Below, piece by piece: positions 5,319 to 26,212 of a stretch of 64,000 nt of DNA. The stretch is from Geodermatophilaceae bacterium NBWT11. GTDB lineage: Bacteria; Actinomycetota; Actinomycetes; Mycobacteriales; Geodermatophilaceae. The stretch lies in the NCBI GenBank assembly GCA_014218215.1, contig CP043652.1, positions 3,596,001 through 3,660,000 of the forward strand, given 5' to 3'. The notes below the pieces were generated by a model that ran no database searches, was not told the origin of the DNA, and saw only the letters and a program-made list of their open reading frames with translations. Position 1 is the first letter of the stretch, and every line of letters begins with the position of its first letter. A program made the position numbers and the translations under genes.

Positions 5319-6345
<1,027 letters not shown>

Positions 6346-6349
<4 letters not shown>

Positions 6350-7434
6350 GCACCATCGCTCCCGCTCCCGTCACCGAGAAGGCCGCGCCCGGCGGGCCCT
6401 CGCTCGGTGCCCGGCTGCTGAAGATCGCGCTGACCCAGCGGATCGCCCTGCTCGTGCTGCTGCTGGTCGCCGTCGTGCTCACCATGACGACGCTCAGCCA
6501 GAACAACTACCTCAGCGCCCCGTACAGCCCGTCGTACATGGCCTCCACGCTGATCAACCTCGTGCCGCTGGTGCTGCTGGGCCTGGCCCAGCTGCTGGTC
6601 ATCACCTCCGGCCGCGGCGGCATCGACCTGTCGGTCGGCGCGATCGTCTCGCTGACCGGCATGGTGTTCGGCTTCGCCTACGGCGAGTGGGGCTGGTCGC
6701 TGTTCCCGGCGCTGCTGCTGGCGGTCGCCTTCGGTGCGCTCTGCGGCGCCCTGAACGGCGTCCTCGTGGCCTACGTCGGCTTCCCGGCACTGATCACCAC
6801 GCTGGCCACGTACTACGCCTTCCGGTCCCTGGCCCTGGTGATCAACGACCAGCAGCCGATCAGCACCCAGCCGATCCAGGACCTCTACTCCACGGCCGCG
6901 ACCGTGCAGCTGCCGTTCCTGCCCGAGTCCTTCCCCCGGGTGCCGCTGGGCATCTTCACCTTCCTGATCCCGACGGTGATCGTGGTGTGGCTGGTGCTGG
7001 CCCGCACCACCTGGGGTCGCCGGCTCTACGCGGTGGGCACCAACGACGTGGCCGCCGAGTGGACCGGCATCGACGTCCGCCGCACCCGGTTCACCGCCTA
7101 CGTCGCCGCGGGCGCCATCTCCGGCCTCGTCGCGGTGGTCACCGTCGCCCAGTTCGCCTCCGCCCGGCCCGACGCCGGGGTCTCCGGCACGGGCATGGCG
7201 CTGCCCGCGATCACCATCGCCGTCCTGGGCGGCGTCGCCATCACCGGCGGCATCGGCCGGGTCGCCGGCGTCGTGCTCGCCGCCCTGCTCATCGTCTGGC
7301 TGAACGCCGGGATCCTGCTCGCCGTCCCGGGCAACACCGGCAGCCAGCTCCAGCTCCTGGCGCTCGGCGCCGTCCTCGTCTTCGCCGCGCTCCTCAACGG
7401 CATCACCAACCGCCGCTACGGAGGCACCCAGTGA
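6346..7434 (+). CDS. rhaQ: Rhamnose ABC transporter permease (second)
   Basis: 362-residue membrane permease paralogous to the preceding gene, with GGIDLSVGAIVSLTGM near residue 90 and AVLGGVAITGGIGRVAG near 290. It forms the heterodimeric channel with RhaP. A start at 6346 (ATGA overlap) gives the normal length. The next gene begins at GTG 7431, again overlapping by four bases. Confidence 0.9.
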
Positions 7435-8207
7435 CCGCGACGTGGGACCCCTCACTCGTCAGCCCCGAACTCGTCCAGCTCACCCGTGACCTCGGCGAAC
7501 CCGCCCGCGACCTGGTGATCCTGGCCGAGGGCAACACCTCCCAGCTGCTCGCCGACGGCCGGGTGGTCGTCAAGGCCTCCGGGTCGAACATGCGGACGTC
7601 GACGGCCGAGGACTTCGTCGTCGTCGACGTGCAGCCGCTGGTCGACCTGATGCGCGACCCCCGCTCGACCCAGGCCGACCTGACCGCCGCCCTGGACGCC
7701 GGGGAGCACGAGGGCCGCCGCCGCCGCGCCTCGATCGAGACGCTGGTGCACGTCGCGGCCCAGGCGTTCGCCCCCACCGCGTTCGTCGGGCACACCCACC
7801 CCACCCCGGTGGTGGCGCTGCTGGCCAGCGTGCACGCCGCCACCGCCTACGACCGGTTCGTCTACTCCGACGAGGCCGTGGTCATCGGCCGCCCGCTGTT
7901 CGTGCCCTACGCCCAGCCCGGTGTGAAGCTCGGCCGGGTCTACCTGGAGGGCCTGACCCGGCACTGGGAGACCCACGGCGAGCTGCCGCAGCTGGTGCTG
8001 CTGGGCAATCACGGGATCGTCGCGCACGCGCCGACCCCGGCCGGCATCGAGGGCGTCTCGCAGATGGCGGTCAAGGGCGCCCAGGTGCGGACGGCGGCCT
8101 ACGCGGCCGGCGGTGTGGCCCCGCTGCCCACCGACTCCGTCGAGGAGTTCTTCGCCCGCGACGACATCGAGGAGCGCCGGCGGAACCTCGCCGGGGGCGT
8201 GCTGTGA
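7431..8207 (+). CDS. Class II aldolase/adducin-family sugar-phosphate aldolase
   Basis: 258 residues of the L-fuculose-phosphate aldolase / ribulose-5-P epimerase fold. The phosphate-binding segments are EGNTSQLL near residue 31 and KASGSNMR near 48. Zinc ligands are GHTHPTP near residue 122 and the third His in LLGNHGIVAHAP near 190. The GTG start has GGAGG six bases upstream. RhaD encoded downstream already contains a rhamnulose-phosphate aldolase domain, so this second aldolase may act on another deoxy- or branched sugar phosphate. The substrate is not readable from sequence. Confidence 0.8.
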   Translation: MTATWDPSLVSPELVQLTRDLGEPARDLVILAEGNTSQLLADGRVVVKASGSNMRTSTAEDFVVVDVQPLVDLMRDPRSTQADLTAALDAGEHEGRRRRASIETLVHVAAQAFAPTAFVGHTHPTPVVALLASVHAATAYDRFVYSDEAVVIGRPLFVPYAQPGVKLGRVYLEGLTRHWETHGELPQLVLLGNHGIVAHAPTPAGIEGVSQMAVKGAQVRTAAYAAGGVAPLPTDSVEEFFARDDIEERRRNLAGGVL

Positions 8208-10420: not shown

Positions 10421-12460
10421 ATGACCTCCCTGCCCGAGGGCGTCCAGGAACTCCTGGCCCGGTCCCACCGCTACGGCAGCGACCCCACCGTCACCAACTA
10501 CGGCGGCGGCAACACCTCGGTGAAGGTGACCGTGACCAGCCCGGCCACCGGCCAGGACGTCGAACTGGTCTACGTGAAGGGCTCCGGGGGCGACCTGGGC
10601 ACCCTGCGCGCCGAGGGGCTGGCCGTGCTGCGCCGCGAGCCGTTCCTCGCCCTGGACGACGTGTACCGCGGGGTCGAGCACGAGGACGAGATGGTCGGGC
10701 TCTTCCCGCACGCCGCCTTCGGCGCCGGCGGTGCGACGCCGTCCATCGACACCCCGATGCACGGTCTGGTCGACTGCCCGCACGTCGACCACCTGCACCC
10801 CGACTCGGTCACCGCGCTGGCCTGCGCCGCCGACGGCCCGGCCCTGGTGGCCGAGCTGTGGGGCGGGAAGGTCGCCTGGGTCGACTGGAAGCGCCCGGGC
10901 TGGGAGCTGGGCCGGCAGGTGTCCGCGCTGGCCCAGGACCCCGAGGTCATCGGGGCCGTGCTCGGCGGGCACGGCCTGACCAGCTGGGGCGCCACCTCCG
11001 CGGAGGCCCAGGAGCGCGCGCTGGGCATCATCGACCAGGCCGCGGAGTTCCTCGCCGCCCGCTCGGTGGCCGAGCCGTTCGGCCCCGTCGTCGCCGGCCG
11101 CGAGGCCCAGCCCACCGAGGTGCGGCGCACCCGGGCCGCCGAGCTGTTCCCGCTGCTGCGCCGGGTCGCCTCGGCCAGCAGCCGGCAGGTCGGCCACCTG
11201 ACCGACTCCGACGTGGTGCTGGACTTCATGTCCCGGGAGAAGCTCGACCACCTGGTCTCGCTCGGCACCTCCTGCCCGGACCACTTCCTGCGCACCAAGA
11301 TCCGCCCGATGGTGCTCGACACCGCCGTCGACGCCCCGCTGGCCGACGTCGAGGCCCGCCTCGTCGAGCTGCTCGCCGAGTACCAGGCCGAGTACAGCGC
11401 CTACTACGAGCGGCACGCGAAGCCGGAGTCCCCGGCGATGCGCGGCTCGGCCCCGGCGATCGTGCTGGTGCCCGGCATCGGGATGTTCTCCTTCGGCGCC
11501 GACCACCAGACGGCCCGGGTCGCGGGGGAGTACTACGTCAACGCGATCAACGTGATGCGCGGCGCCGAGGGCGTCAGCAGCTACGCCCCGATCAGCGAGG
11601 CGGAGAAGTTCGCCGTGGAGTACTGGCAGCTGGAGGAGGACAAGCTCGCCCGCCGGCCCAAGCCCAAGGCCCTCTCCGGCCGGATCGCGCTGGTCACCGG
11701 GGCGGCGTCGGGCATCGGCCTGGCCACCGCCCGGCTGCTCGCCGAGCACGGCGCCGACATCGTCGTCGCCGACCTGGACCTGGCCAAGAGCGAGGAGGTC
11801 GTGGCCGAGCTCGGGGGCCCCGACCGTGCCGTCGCCGTCCGGATGGACGTCTCGGACCCGGCGGCCGTCGCCGCCGGTGTGCAGCAGGCGGTGCTCGCCC
11901 TGGGCGGGATCGACATCGTGGTGAACAACGCCGGGTTCGTGAAGCCCGGGTCGCTGGCCGACACGGAGTTGAAGGACTGGGACGCCCAGTTCGCCGTCAT
12001 GACCCGGGGCAGCTTCGTGGTCACCCAGGCCGCCGCGGTCGTCCTGCGCGGGCAGGGCCTGGGCGGCGACGTGATCAACATCTGCTCGAAGAACGCGGTG
12101 TTCGCCGGTCCGAACAACCTGGCCTACTCCTCGGCCAAGGCCGCCCAGGCGCACATGGTGCGGCTGCTGGCCACCGAGCTGGGCGAGGACGGCATCCGGG
12201 TCAACGGGATCAACCCCGACGGCGTCGTCCGCGGCTCGGGGATCTTCTCCGGCGGCTGGGGCGCCTCCCGGGCGGCCACCTACGGCGTGCAGGAGGACGA
12301 CCTGGGCAAGTACTACGCCTCGCGCACCGTGCTCAAGGAGGAGGTCCTCCCCGAGCACGTCGCCGGGGCGGTGCTCGCGCTGACCAACGGCACCCTCGCC
12401 GTCACCACCGGGCTGCTGGTCCCGGTCGACTCCGGGGTGGCGGCGGCCTTCCTGCGCTGA
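10421..12460 (+). CDS. rhaD: Bifunctional rhamnulose-1-phosphate aldolase / lactaldehyde dehydrogenase
   Basis: 679 residues. The N-terminal half is a class II aldolase module (TNYGGGNTSVK near residue 25, zinc His in DHLHPDS near 125) that splits rhamnulose-1-phosphate to DHAP and L-lactaldehyde. The C-terminal half from about residue 423 is a short-chain dehydrogenase (VTGAASGIGLATA, NNAG, YSSAK) that oxidises lactaldehyde to lactate. ATG 10421 has GGACGGAG upstream and gives the usual family length. An upstream GTG at 10358, overlapping the kinase stop, would add 21 residues. The product feeds LldD encoded downstream. Confidence 0.92.
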   Translation: MTSLPEGVQELLARSHRYGSDPTVTNYGGGNTSVKVTVTSPATGQDVELVYVKGSGGDLGTLRAEGLAVLRREPFLALDDVYRGVEHEDEMVGLFPHAAFGAGGATPSIDTPMHGLVDCPHVDHLHPDSVTALACAADGPALVAELWGGKVAWVDWKRPGWELGRQVSALAQDPEVIGAVLGGHGLTSWGATSAEAQERALGIIDQAAEFLAARSVAEPFGPVVAGREAQPTEVRRTRAAELFPLLRRVASASSRQVGHLTDSDVVLDFMSREKLDHLVSLGTSCPDHFLRTKIRPMVLDTAVDAPLADVEARLVELLAEYQAEYSAYYERHAKPESPAMRGSAPAIVLVPGIGMFSFGADHQTARVAGEYYVNAINVMRGAEGVSSYAPISEAEKFAVEYWQLEEDKLARRPKPKALSGRIALVTGAASGIGLATARLLAEHGADIVVADLDLAKSEEVVAELGGPDRAVAVRMDVSDPAAVAAGVQQAVLALGGIDIVVNNAGFVKPGSLADTELKDWDAQFAVMTRGSFVVTQAAAVVLRGQGLGGDVINICSKNAVFAGPNNLAYSSAKAAQAHMVRLLATELGEDGIRVNGINPDGVVRGSGIFSGGWGASRAATYGVQEDDLGKYYASRTVLKEEVLPEHVAGAVLALTNGTLAVTTGLLVPVDSGVAAAFLR

Positions 12461-24238: not shown

Positions 24239-24275
24239 GTGGGGCGGGTGGGGCTCGAACCCACGACCCAGGGAT
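24239..24275 (-). repeat. Left attachment-site repeat: truncated 3' half of tRNA-Met
   Basis: 37 bp identical to 26099-26135, covering the anticodon-stem 3' strand, T-arm, acceptor strand and discriminator of the intact tRNA-Met. Beyond 24275 the similarity to the tRNA stops and no 5' half follows. This is the classical footprint of an element integrated at the 3' end of a tRNA gene. Confidence 0.75.
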
Positions 24276-24716: not shown

Positions 24717-24916
24717 GCCACTCAGTCTGTCGGCCCCCCGACCTAAGGGCGCGGCATGGACCGACGGGCACCTCGCCGTGCTGGACGTCGGCTCGACACC
24801 ATGCTGTTCGCCATGGCGCCGAACGGAGGTCAGGCGATCGCGCAGGAAAATGCGTGGTGGGCAGCCGGTACCCCGTGCACTGTGACCGCAGGAGGTTCGC
24901 TGGTCAGTGGATCTCT

Positions 24917-25019
24917 ACAGGGTCGCGGGTTCAAATCCCGTCGGCCTTGTCCGCAAGGCCGTAGCTCAGTCTGGTAGAGCGGCAGCGTGCCTGGTCGACC
25001 CTGTCGGCCAGGCACGCTG
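24917..25019 (+). ncRNA. Circularly permuted tRNA-like structured RNA
   Basis: A tRNA 3' half comes first: T-stem GCGGG/CCCGT with loop TTCAAAT (24925-24941), then acceptor strand CGGCCTTG (24942-24949). A TCCG loop joins it to the perfectly matching 5' acceptor strand CAAGGCCG (24954-24961), which is followed by TA and a canonical D-arm, GCTC/GAGC with AGTCTGGTA loop (24964-24980). Next is a perfect 12-bp hairpin (24983-24994 with 25008-25019), whose loop holds GACCCTGT, complementary to ACAGGGTC (24917-24924) abutting the T-stem. No normal anticodon arm is formed. It could be a permuted tRNA, a tRNA-like regulatory RNA or the junction of two decayed tRNAs. Confidence 0.5.
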
Positions 25020-25405
25020 TGGATGACAGCAGACGCTTCTGGCAGAAGTCGGGGATGCCTGAGACGCTCATCGGGTCGATGGAGTTGGTGGCCGTCGACC
25101 TTGGCCGCGGCCTCGATGCATGCGTTGCCACGCCTGGCGCGTGCGTCCGTTGTGGAGGGGAGCTGCCCGTTCGAGACGGGCCCGTGCAGGCACCCGGGGC
25201 GGGCGCATGAGATCGATCAAACGCCCGCCCCGGCCACCGCTCCAGTAGCGCGACCCCGCGCGATGTCGACTCTCGAGAGCACCGCGGCGCCTGGTTGACG
25301 ATCATCGATGCATCCGTTGCCGTGCAACGGTCATGGCGACGGTGGCGAGACGGGCAGGCGCTTGTCTCGCCGGTTGCAGCAGTGCAGACATGGCCGCAAG
25401 GGGGT
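25020..25405. other. Island stretch without a convincing gene
   Basis: A 63-codon plus-strand frame (25019-25210) contains a CVRCGGELP cysteine pair but has weak codon bias and no clear ribosome site, so it is not called. The stretch also holds a long hairpin (25194-25233), the 8-bp palindrome TCTCGAGA near 25270 and the inverted repeat CCGTTGC-CGT-GCAACGG (25314-25330). Base composition is visibly less GC-rich than in neighbouring genes. Confidence 0.4.
25194..25233. terminator. 12-bp stem hairpin in the island
   Basis: Perfect inverted repeat 25194-25205 with 25222-25233; the 16-base loop contains GATCGATC. It lies about 175 bp downstream of the permuted tRNA-like element on the same strand and could end a transcript covering it. 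Confidence 0.45.
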
Positions 25406-26015
25406 TCAACCGGGACCGACTGTGTCGGCGGCCCCAAGAAGCCGTCCGATCCTGGCTAGGTGGACCAGGTCGATGGTCAGCTCGACTACCCAGCTGGCGG
25501 CGCCGGTGGTGACCAACTGCTCGTGATCCGGGAATGTTCGAGGCTCTCCGAGAAGCCCTAGGGGCCAGGCGATGCACAACAGGGCAGCGTCGCGCGAATC
25601 CCGCAAGCTGCGGGCTCGTTCCGGCAACTTCTCGTCCTGAGCAGTGCGTTCGCGCTCGTGGTCGACGTAAGGCTGTCGTCCTGGCCATCGGCGGGGGCGT
25701 TCGGTCCAGTTGCCCGATCGAACTTGCTCGTCACGCAGGTCGAACTGATCCACGCCCGGCCGCAGAACTGCGGCCCGGAGGGACCCGCCGGTGCTGACCC
25801 AATCGGTGACCCACTGATCGGCCGGCCCGAAGCCCGTCGGGCTGGTGTCGAGCTCCACTGAGTCGGGCCACCTCGGCGAGCCGGTTCAAGAGAACTAGCT
25901 CGACAGCGATTGCACCCCTCACCGCGATCGGGGTCACTAGGTCGTCGGTGAGGCGCCCACGAGGGTCGAGGGCCAGGCTGGCCAGGCGCATGGGAACGGA
26001 GTCGGCCCACGTCAT
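25406..26015 (-). pseudogene. Frameshifted GPP34 (Golgi phosphoprotein 3)-like gene
   Basis: From ATG 26015 one frame reads MTWADSVPMRLASLALDPRG, then an Ala/Val/Leu-rich segment ending LLNRLAEVARLS. The continuation VELDTSPTGFGPADQWVTDW is in another frame from about 25858 and runs to the stop at 25406. Joined, the two parts resemble the small actinobacterial GPP34 phosphoinositide-binding family (early GRL, then a PTG stretch and a WV tract). A single-base indel near 25860 explains the break. Alternatively these are two overlapping genes. The family call is tentative. Confidence 0.4.
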
Positions 26016-26098
26016 GGCTACATGGTCTCGTAGAGGATGTGCTGCCGGGCGCATCAGCTTCGCGACGATGCAGGAGCATGAACGCCGGGACAGCGACG

Positions 26099-26135
26099 GT
26101 GGGGCGGGTGGGGCTCGAACCCACGACCCAGGGAT
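26099..26135 (-). repeat. Right attachment-site repeat inside the intact tRNA-Met
   Basis: Exact 37-bp copy of 24239-24275, 1860 bp apart in direct orientation. Here it forms the 3' half of the complete tRNA-Met. The geometry, with the intact tRNA at one end and the orphan 3' half downstream of its 3' end, is that of a tRNA-integrated element. Confidence 0.75.
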
Positions 26136-26173
26136 TATGAGTCCCATGCTCTGACCGGCTGAGCTACCGCCCC
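26100..26173 (-). tRNA. tRNA-Met (anticodon CAT)
   Basis: 74 bases on the minus strand. The acceptor stem GGGGCGG pairs with CCGCCCC, the D-stem is GCTC/GAGC, the anticodon stem-loop is GGGAC-TCATAAT-style with CAT at 34-36, and the T-arm is GTGGG-TTCGAGC-CCCAC. The discriminator is A, and CCA is not fully encoded. Elongator Met is more likely than Ile2 (CAU read after modification), but the two cannot be separated with certainty here. Confidence 0.88.
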
Positions 26174-26212
26174 TCGTGTGCGGACAGCCTGCCATGCGGG
26201 TTGACTCGGGCC

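Follow-up and report, generated by a model that had tools for sequence, protein, structure and literature searches.

The 64,000-nucleotide stretch of the Geodermatophilaceae bacterium NBWT11 genome analysed here, called the window below, encodes on its forward strand, in the region 24891-25019, what is probably an orphan, mobile derivative of a bacterial Y RNA acting as a tRNA mimic, a putative function proposed from sequence comparison. The presumed small non-coding RNA, ~105-135 nt long, would either descend from the tRNA-like module of YrlA or have a common core with it. Its T-arm, capped acceptor stem and D-arm would form a tRNA elbow with a Levitt pair—homology and covariation support this—and a self-contained 17-bp hairpin in the position of the anticodon arm replaces the 3' strand of the Ro-binding stem. 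Having neither a CCA end nor an anticodon loop, such an RNA would be expected neither to be charged nor to decode. It appears to reside in integrative islands of Geodermatophilaceae with no detectable Ro60, the island location being established for the window, Klenkia soli and Geodermatophilus ruber.

A permuted tRNA-like module followed by a long hairpin

At its 5' side, the RNA possibly has a predicted hairpin of 11 bp, several of them G-U (24891-24916); a hairpin was predicted near the same place in the five homologues, with z-scores of only 0.1 to -1.7. The following segment, ACAGGGTC (24917-24924), ends in bases corresponding to a tRNA-type variable region, C24924 being position 48; its Levitt partner is G24969, and the pair is C-G in the two Klenkia sequences and U-A in the other three homologues. 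The T-arm, GCGGG-TTCAAAT-CCCGT, has 5 bp and the 7-nt loop TTCAAAT (24925-24941) and leads into a perfect 8-bp acceptor-like stem (24942-24961), the strands of which (24942-24949 and 24954-24961) are joined by the 4-nt loop TCCG, i.e. a UCCG cap in the RNA, its counterpart in K. soli being UUCG. The D-arm (24964-24980) consists of 4 bp and the loop AGTCTGGTA; like the T-arm, it is recognised from the sequence, the match to YrlA and the homologues, the acceptor stem resting on the sequence and the homologues. The succession of T-arm, four-base-loop acceptor stem and D-arm proposed in the sequence-only reading can thus be read directly from the sequence. The 12-bp hairpin described there is, however, just the outer part of a 37-nt hairpin of 17 bp (one G-U) with the 3-nt loop CCT (24983-25019), which takes the anticodon-arm position and closes the conserved unit. 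That the whole arrangement is beyond chance, as had been argued, is borne out both by the covariance match to YrlA and by the folding z-score of -6.56 for the segment 24890-25045, none of 200 shuffled sequences being equally stable.

Concerning known RNAs with a permuted order, permuted tRNA genes occur in algae and archaea, and they have the 3' half before the 5' half, as does the RNA in the window. Unlike them, it lacks a split anticodon arm, a CCA end and an excisable intervening sequence. A permuted tRNA gene that is spliced or processed to a working tRNA would account for the order of the arms, but it can be given almost no weight, since the acceptor stem bears a UNCG-type cap in the two Klenkia sequences, both the anticodon loop and an acceptor end able to carry CCA are lacking, and the D-arm is followed by an unbroken hairpin and not by split anticodon halves. 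Of the three options left by the sequence-only reading—a permuted tRNA, a tRNA mimic and the remains of a tandem tRNA pair—it is the mimic that the capped stem, the missing CCA end and anticodon and the YrlA-like layout favour, the other two being disfavoured by the same features.

A tmRNA was also considered and rejected. The permuted tRNA-like domain is common to permuted tmRNA and the RNA in the window, but ARAGORN reported neither a tRNA nor a tmRNA at the site and Rfam assigned no tmRNA to it, so that neither a recognised tmRNA-type tRNA-like domain nor a tag frame was found. Searched for beside the RNA, a sigma-70-like promoter and a T-tailed terminator were not found.

Relationship to YrlA and the Ro-binding stem

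Bacterial Y RNAs are understood as tethers joining Ro60 to an effector. The Rfam search at a permissive threshold returned one credible match, YrlA (RF02553; 38.1 bits, E 1.1e-6 in 801 bases), covering the model positions 27-81 of 114, i.e. the tRNA-like module with the basal stem excluded. When the whole genome was scanned with the YrlA model, the site was the best of five matches at E up to 1 (E 1.5e-6). The T-arm, the closed acceptor stem and the D-arm of the YrlA module are all present, and the layout, which had not been recognised in the sequence-only reading, is therefore that of a known RNA module. The score of 38.1 bits remains under the gathering score of 69 bits, which tells little, because none of 396 actinobacterial genomes reached the latter, the best one having 56.2 bits. 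In that census, 68 of the 396 genomes matched RF02553 at E 1e-4, but tandem tRNAs were found among the weak matches, and four control genomes (including E. coli and B. subtilis) matched too, so that no count of orphan modules was drawn.

A second covariance model (R2) was prepared from 12 ordinary YrlA sequences; TROVE was matched in the source records of 11, the exception being L073, whose record has 23 kb. With this model the window scored 55.4 bits in total and 50.4 bits for the module alone, the flanks outside the module thus contributing 5.0 bits, compared with 4.5 in K. soli and 6.0 in Modestobacter muralis; in G. ruber just the module was matched, the flanks adding nothing, and the copy from Modestobacter sp. 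VKM Ac-2986 (42.9 bits) was scored as a whole only. For Y RNAs outside the model, the flanks gave 33.8 (L031, counted as ordinary by its motif and not by TROVE), 12.1 (L195), 11.8 (L196), 11.4 (L198) and 12.7 bits (L086). The total for the window was not below those of several Ro-linked Y RNAs (57.1 for L195, 49.5 for L198, 48.8 for L086 and 47.9 for L196).

Most ordinary YrlA RNAs have the Ro-binding strands GGTGCG..TTACTTC upstream and GATCTCGG downstream, neither being recognisable in the RNA of the window, where the 17-bp hairpin stands in place of the 3' strand. Upstream TACTTC is absent from the copies of the family (by script; by eye for G. ruber), and was present in 22 of 35 distinct candidate modules found by a script, in whose output G. 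ruber is missing and two or three entries seem spurious. The Levitt pair in these candidates was C48-G15 in 25, U48-A15 in seven and another combination in three. Owing to the low share of the flanks in the score and the missing motif, the Ro-binding stem appears to be lost, or at least is not recognisable at the sequence level, the margin to divergent Y RNAs being small. YrlA and the RNA in the window are otherwise alike in the order of T-arm, capped acceptor stem and D-arm, in the Levitt pair and in their occurrence in phages. The permuted module at 24925-24980 is, judging from these similarities, most likely a tRNA mimic of the Y RNA type.

As far as the putative Ro60 partner is concerned, the gene of which usually lies next to that of YrlA, no TROVE match was obtained in the own genome of the RNA, nor in any of the six Geodermatophilaceae genomes with a module, i.e. 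the five carriers of the RNA and Klenkia G005, some of these being drafts. The domain was present in all five other actinobacteria tested, and a wider search was positive for seven of 192 genomes, none of them belonging to the family.

In YrlA, Rsr is tethered by the basal stem, and the tRNA-like domain is a substrate of DusA and TruB and a binding site for PNPase (PMC8394870); a possible inhibitory effect of this domain on an anticodon nuclease has also been suggested (PMC7790460).

Homologues and covariation

Four homologues were found, all in Geodermatophilaceae: K. soli, Modestobacter sp. VKM Ac-2986, M. muralis and G. ruber. Among 196 genomes, that of the window counted in, a search yielded one clear homologue (87% over 113 nt) as well as weaker ones, and a scan of the species genome collection with a specific pattern returned four contigs, the record of the window itself possibly having been excluded. 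The covariance model of the five copies (R1) was run on 112 genomes of the family, with filters that can lose weak matches; the copies, from which the model had been made, scored 92.7-116.3 bits, and everything else at most 45.8 bits. The RNA is thus rare, being present in five of 112 family genomes under a model whose source is those same five.

In the alignment of the five copies, 94.8% of the cells are paired, compared with at most 44% in slid controls. Both sides have changed in 12 of the 35 pairs, namely in eight of the 17 hairpin pairs, three of the eight acceptor pairs and the Levitt pair 15-48. None of 500 shuffles reached either the percentage paired or the covariation score, and two of 500 reached the number of doubly changed pairs; the count of further pair types was not above shuffles, 439 of 500 attaining it. 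The stems of the T-arm and the D-arm are invariant in all five copies, and are therefore uninformative with regard to covariation. In the acceptor stem, five of 40 cells are unpaired (G. ruber accounts for two of them and the remaining three homologues for one each), and the hairpin has mismatches in two copies—three in Modestobacter sp. VKM Ac-2986 and one in G. ruber. Compensatory changes, the check proposed for the acceptor stem, T-stem, hairpin and an 8-base long-range pairing, were seen in the hairpin and the acceptor stem, the T-stem being unvarying and the 8-base pairing not exceeding shuffles. The two Modestobacter copies lie within a sharply bounded shared block (261 columns, 90% identical) in loci with no other strong similarity; an att-like repeat was sought at these loci within 19 kb.

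The main rival explanation is that the RNA is a relic of an ordinary phage-borne YrlA, deprived of its Ro partner, functionless and in decay. Its rarity (five of 112 genomes) and the mismatches in the hairpin of two and the acceptor stem of four of the five copies would fit such a relic. It is nevertheless considered unlikely, given the changes on both sides of eight of 17 hairpin pairs, three of eight acceptor pairs and the Levitt pair, the possession by all five copies of a hairpin foreign to the ordinary YrlA sequences aligned, and the 90% identity of the two Modestobacter copies over 261 columns at different loci.

The pseudoknot-like complementarity between ACAGGGTC and GACCCTGT claimed in the sequence-only reading is exact over eight bases. 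GACCCTGT (24997-25004) was placed there in the loop of the hairpin, but it has only three of its eight bases in the loop and five in the stem. Over the five homologues, 33 of 40 cells are pairable (25 of 32 without the window), the two arms pairing at 8, 7, 6, 5 and 7 of the eight positions across the five species. Slid registers are at most 40% paired, which counts in favour of the pairing, and among 510 registers in the other four species this one ranks best with G-U allowed and eleventh with Watson-Crick pairs only. Of 500 shuffles, 68 had at least as high a percentage paired and 129 at least as high a covariation score, and arms taken from different species pair about equally well. The pairing would also compete with the Levitt pair for C48. 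An alternative closed form, in which ACAGGGTC is paired with GACCCTGT, is a possible candidate. In modelling, the predicted minimum-energy fold of 24920-25029 is the tRNA-like form, and that of longer stretches has ACAGGGTCG paired with the acceptor strand instead; for K. soli, M. muralis and G. ruber the predicted minimum differs from the tRNA-like fold, the gap in M. muralis being only 0.4 kcal/mol.

The island in the window

The RNA is situated in a 1.86-kb insertion between 37-bp direct repeats of the 3' end of tRNA-Met. The left, att-like copy (24239-24275) is identical to the right one (26099-26135), which lies inside the tRNA-Met gene itself (26098-26173, reverse strand). The site is empty in three Klenkia relatives (L202, L203 and L205), where the flanks are adjacent and there is a single tRNA-Met and no island; in the four further loci included in the comparison (L200, L201, L204 and L208), the left flank could not be located. 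The direct repeat and the empty sites support the mobile island supposed by the sequence-only reading and are those expected of an integrative island. Its own integrase was not found: the 12 ORFs scanned in it matched no Pfam family, and this lack of an integrase or of any intact known gene is a further point in favour of the decaying relic. In another Klenkia (G006:C4:448781-463539), ~14 kb part the tRNA-Met match from the match to its usual following sequence, so that this site may hold a further insertion.

The same data bear on the third option of the sequence-only reading, a decayed pair of tandem tRNAs, in which the T-arm and D-arm would follow in the same order, as they do in many of 60 viral pattern matches. 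This origin must be regarded as extremely improbable, since the two acceptor strands are able to pair with one another in 35 of 40 cells, the hairpin covaries and the three relatives with the empty site have just one tRNA-Met. A two-tRNA arrangement at this place, named beforehand as the sign of such decay, was not seen in the six Klenkia loci scanned.

Within the island, a degenerate copy of the Klenkia island repeat (24799-24828, forward strand) is found near the upstream end of the unit common with K. soli; its 18-nt core, with three mismatches, lies at 24807-24824, two such sites being present in the window against 0.17 expected. A possible second degenerate copy (25325-25354, forward strand) is weak, being one of nine sites in the window with at most 10 mismatches of 30. 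The reverse strand carries a broken gene in two frames (25406-26195); its relative in the G. ruber island is a GPP34-like gene (192 bp of DNA, 67% identical), the second item common to the two islands. The G. ruber counterpart (L096:11929-12519) matched GPP34 with E 8e-6, below the cut-off, and the frames in the window matched nothing.

No conserved partner gene was found beside the RNA in the all-against-all comparison of ORFs of at least 60 aa from the five 19-kb neighbourhoods. The matches obtained were overlaps with the RNA or tRNA-Ala sites, a G. ruber/K. soli gene pair outside the islands, one weak G. ruber/M. muralis pair and the GPP34-like gene of the window and G. ruber. Since no such gene was found, the partner of the RNA is probably a host protein.

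Islands carrying the RNA in relatives

In K. soli, the RNA is found in a 3.84-kb island bounded by 52-bp tRNA-Ala repeats, between two neighbouring copies of a dispersed repeat. This island (L094:6149-10036) resembles a gene-cassette array, with seven to eight repeats of ~49 nt in one orientation. The repeats are 311-773 bp apart and at least four of them are located directly 3' of a predicted small ORF. Their pattern, sought in 108 genomes, gave six matches in K. soli, all in the island, two single sites in another Klenkia, and none in the rest of the genomes or in the reversed control. The ten ORFs scanned in the island comprised no integrase, the one weak match, Imm33-like, being below the cut-off.

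In G. ruber, the tRNA-Ala island that contains the RNA spans 12.9 kb and includes two phage-integrase-type genes. The RNA is enclosed here by two copies of a palindromic repeat, which are separated by 231 bp and unlike the repeat of K. soli. The repeat (~30 nt) has eight copies in the island (L096:3421-16497), six of which share an orientation and two of which are inverted, the switch occurring at a Xer-like recombinase gene. Hairpin clustering revealed no dispersed repeats beside other relatives of this recombinase, but the procedure also missed the known repeats of G. ruber.

A sixth module, distinct from the others and with a long hairpin, is present in Klenkia G005. It lies in an 8.5-kb segment delimited by a 29-bp repeat at the end of a glutamine-synthetase-like gene, next to an integrase-like frame, these genes being named from the look of their proteins and not from a family search.

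The positions of the K. soli and G. ruber copies between dispersed island repeats, together with the three islands at tRNA genes, could speak for a role at the DNA level, i.e. a folded recombination site or an integron-like cassette end, whose likeness to tRNA serves integration. Such a role is nevertheless very doubtful: the island repeats themselves differ in sequence and recur where the tRNA-like part is missing, the module is familiar as an RNA from other sources, and both the G-U pairs and the Levitt pair indicate an RNA.

Proposed role

According to the preferred reading, that of an orphan Y RNA derivative, the RNA would be transcribed and its elbow offered to tRNA-binding proteins, such as modification enzymes of the TruB/Dus type, PNPase or a tRNA-attacking enzyme, which would thereby be tethered or titrated for the element, while the long hairpin would protect the 3' end or give a second binding site. 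More tentatively, and with less than even confidence, there might be a class of Ro60-independent, hairpin-tailed tRNA mimics serving as independent cassettes of mobile elements, which would bait or redirect host tRNA-handling proteins (tRNA-cutting nucleases, PNPase), perhaps with a switch between the hairpin and the closed form made by ACAGGGTC and GACCCTGT. The findings point to a possible independent spread of tRNA mimics. A tRNA-mimicking half kept with compensatory changes, borne by islands and without a detectable Ro60, would show that this half has its own function, and would offer a small natural system for finding the protein that it binds. No description of a hairpin-tailed Y RNA without Ro60 was recognised in the literature searched, which lacked a main Y RNA paper, so that novelty is unproven.

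Similar modules in phages, plasmids and viral contigs

Y RNA tRNA mimics are already known, phages included; one Mycolicibacterium prophage with YrlA and a Vibrio phage with a Ro60-related protein have been described (PMC8190616, PMC7765460). Similar DNA was found in 13 phage and three plasmid records, four of which were examined. In Sparky and Boopy the module is near an annotated Ro-like gene, the Myrna record has a TROVE gene at another place, and in Methylosinus the module is flanked by rtcB and by a gene with a TROVE match below the cut-off.

The same permuted module with other flanks and without TACTTC occurs in the viral records L044 (7050), L062 (1991 and 4833) and L036, as well as in Klenkia sp. 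G005 (L109); TROVE was matched neither in these viral records, which may be fragments, nor in G005. The 53.8-kb contig L036, at 7313-7440, has two permuted tRNA-like modules head to tail. Another viral contig (L030, 51.7 kb) contains a TROVE gene and three modules, at 6344 and 6481 on the forward and at 12386 on the reverse strand, one of them with a long hairpin 3' of the D-arm, as in the window. Finally, phage annotations of tRNA-Leu (L196:3941-4029) and tRNA-Asp (L197:3960-4031) overlap a Y-RNA-like module and may be misannotations.
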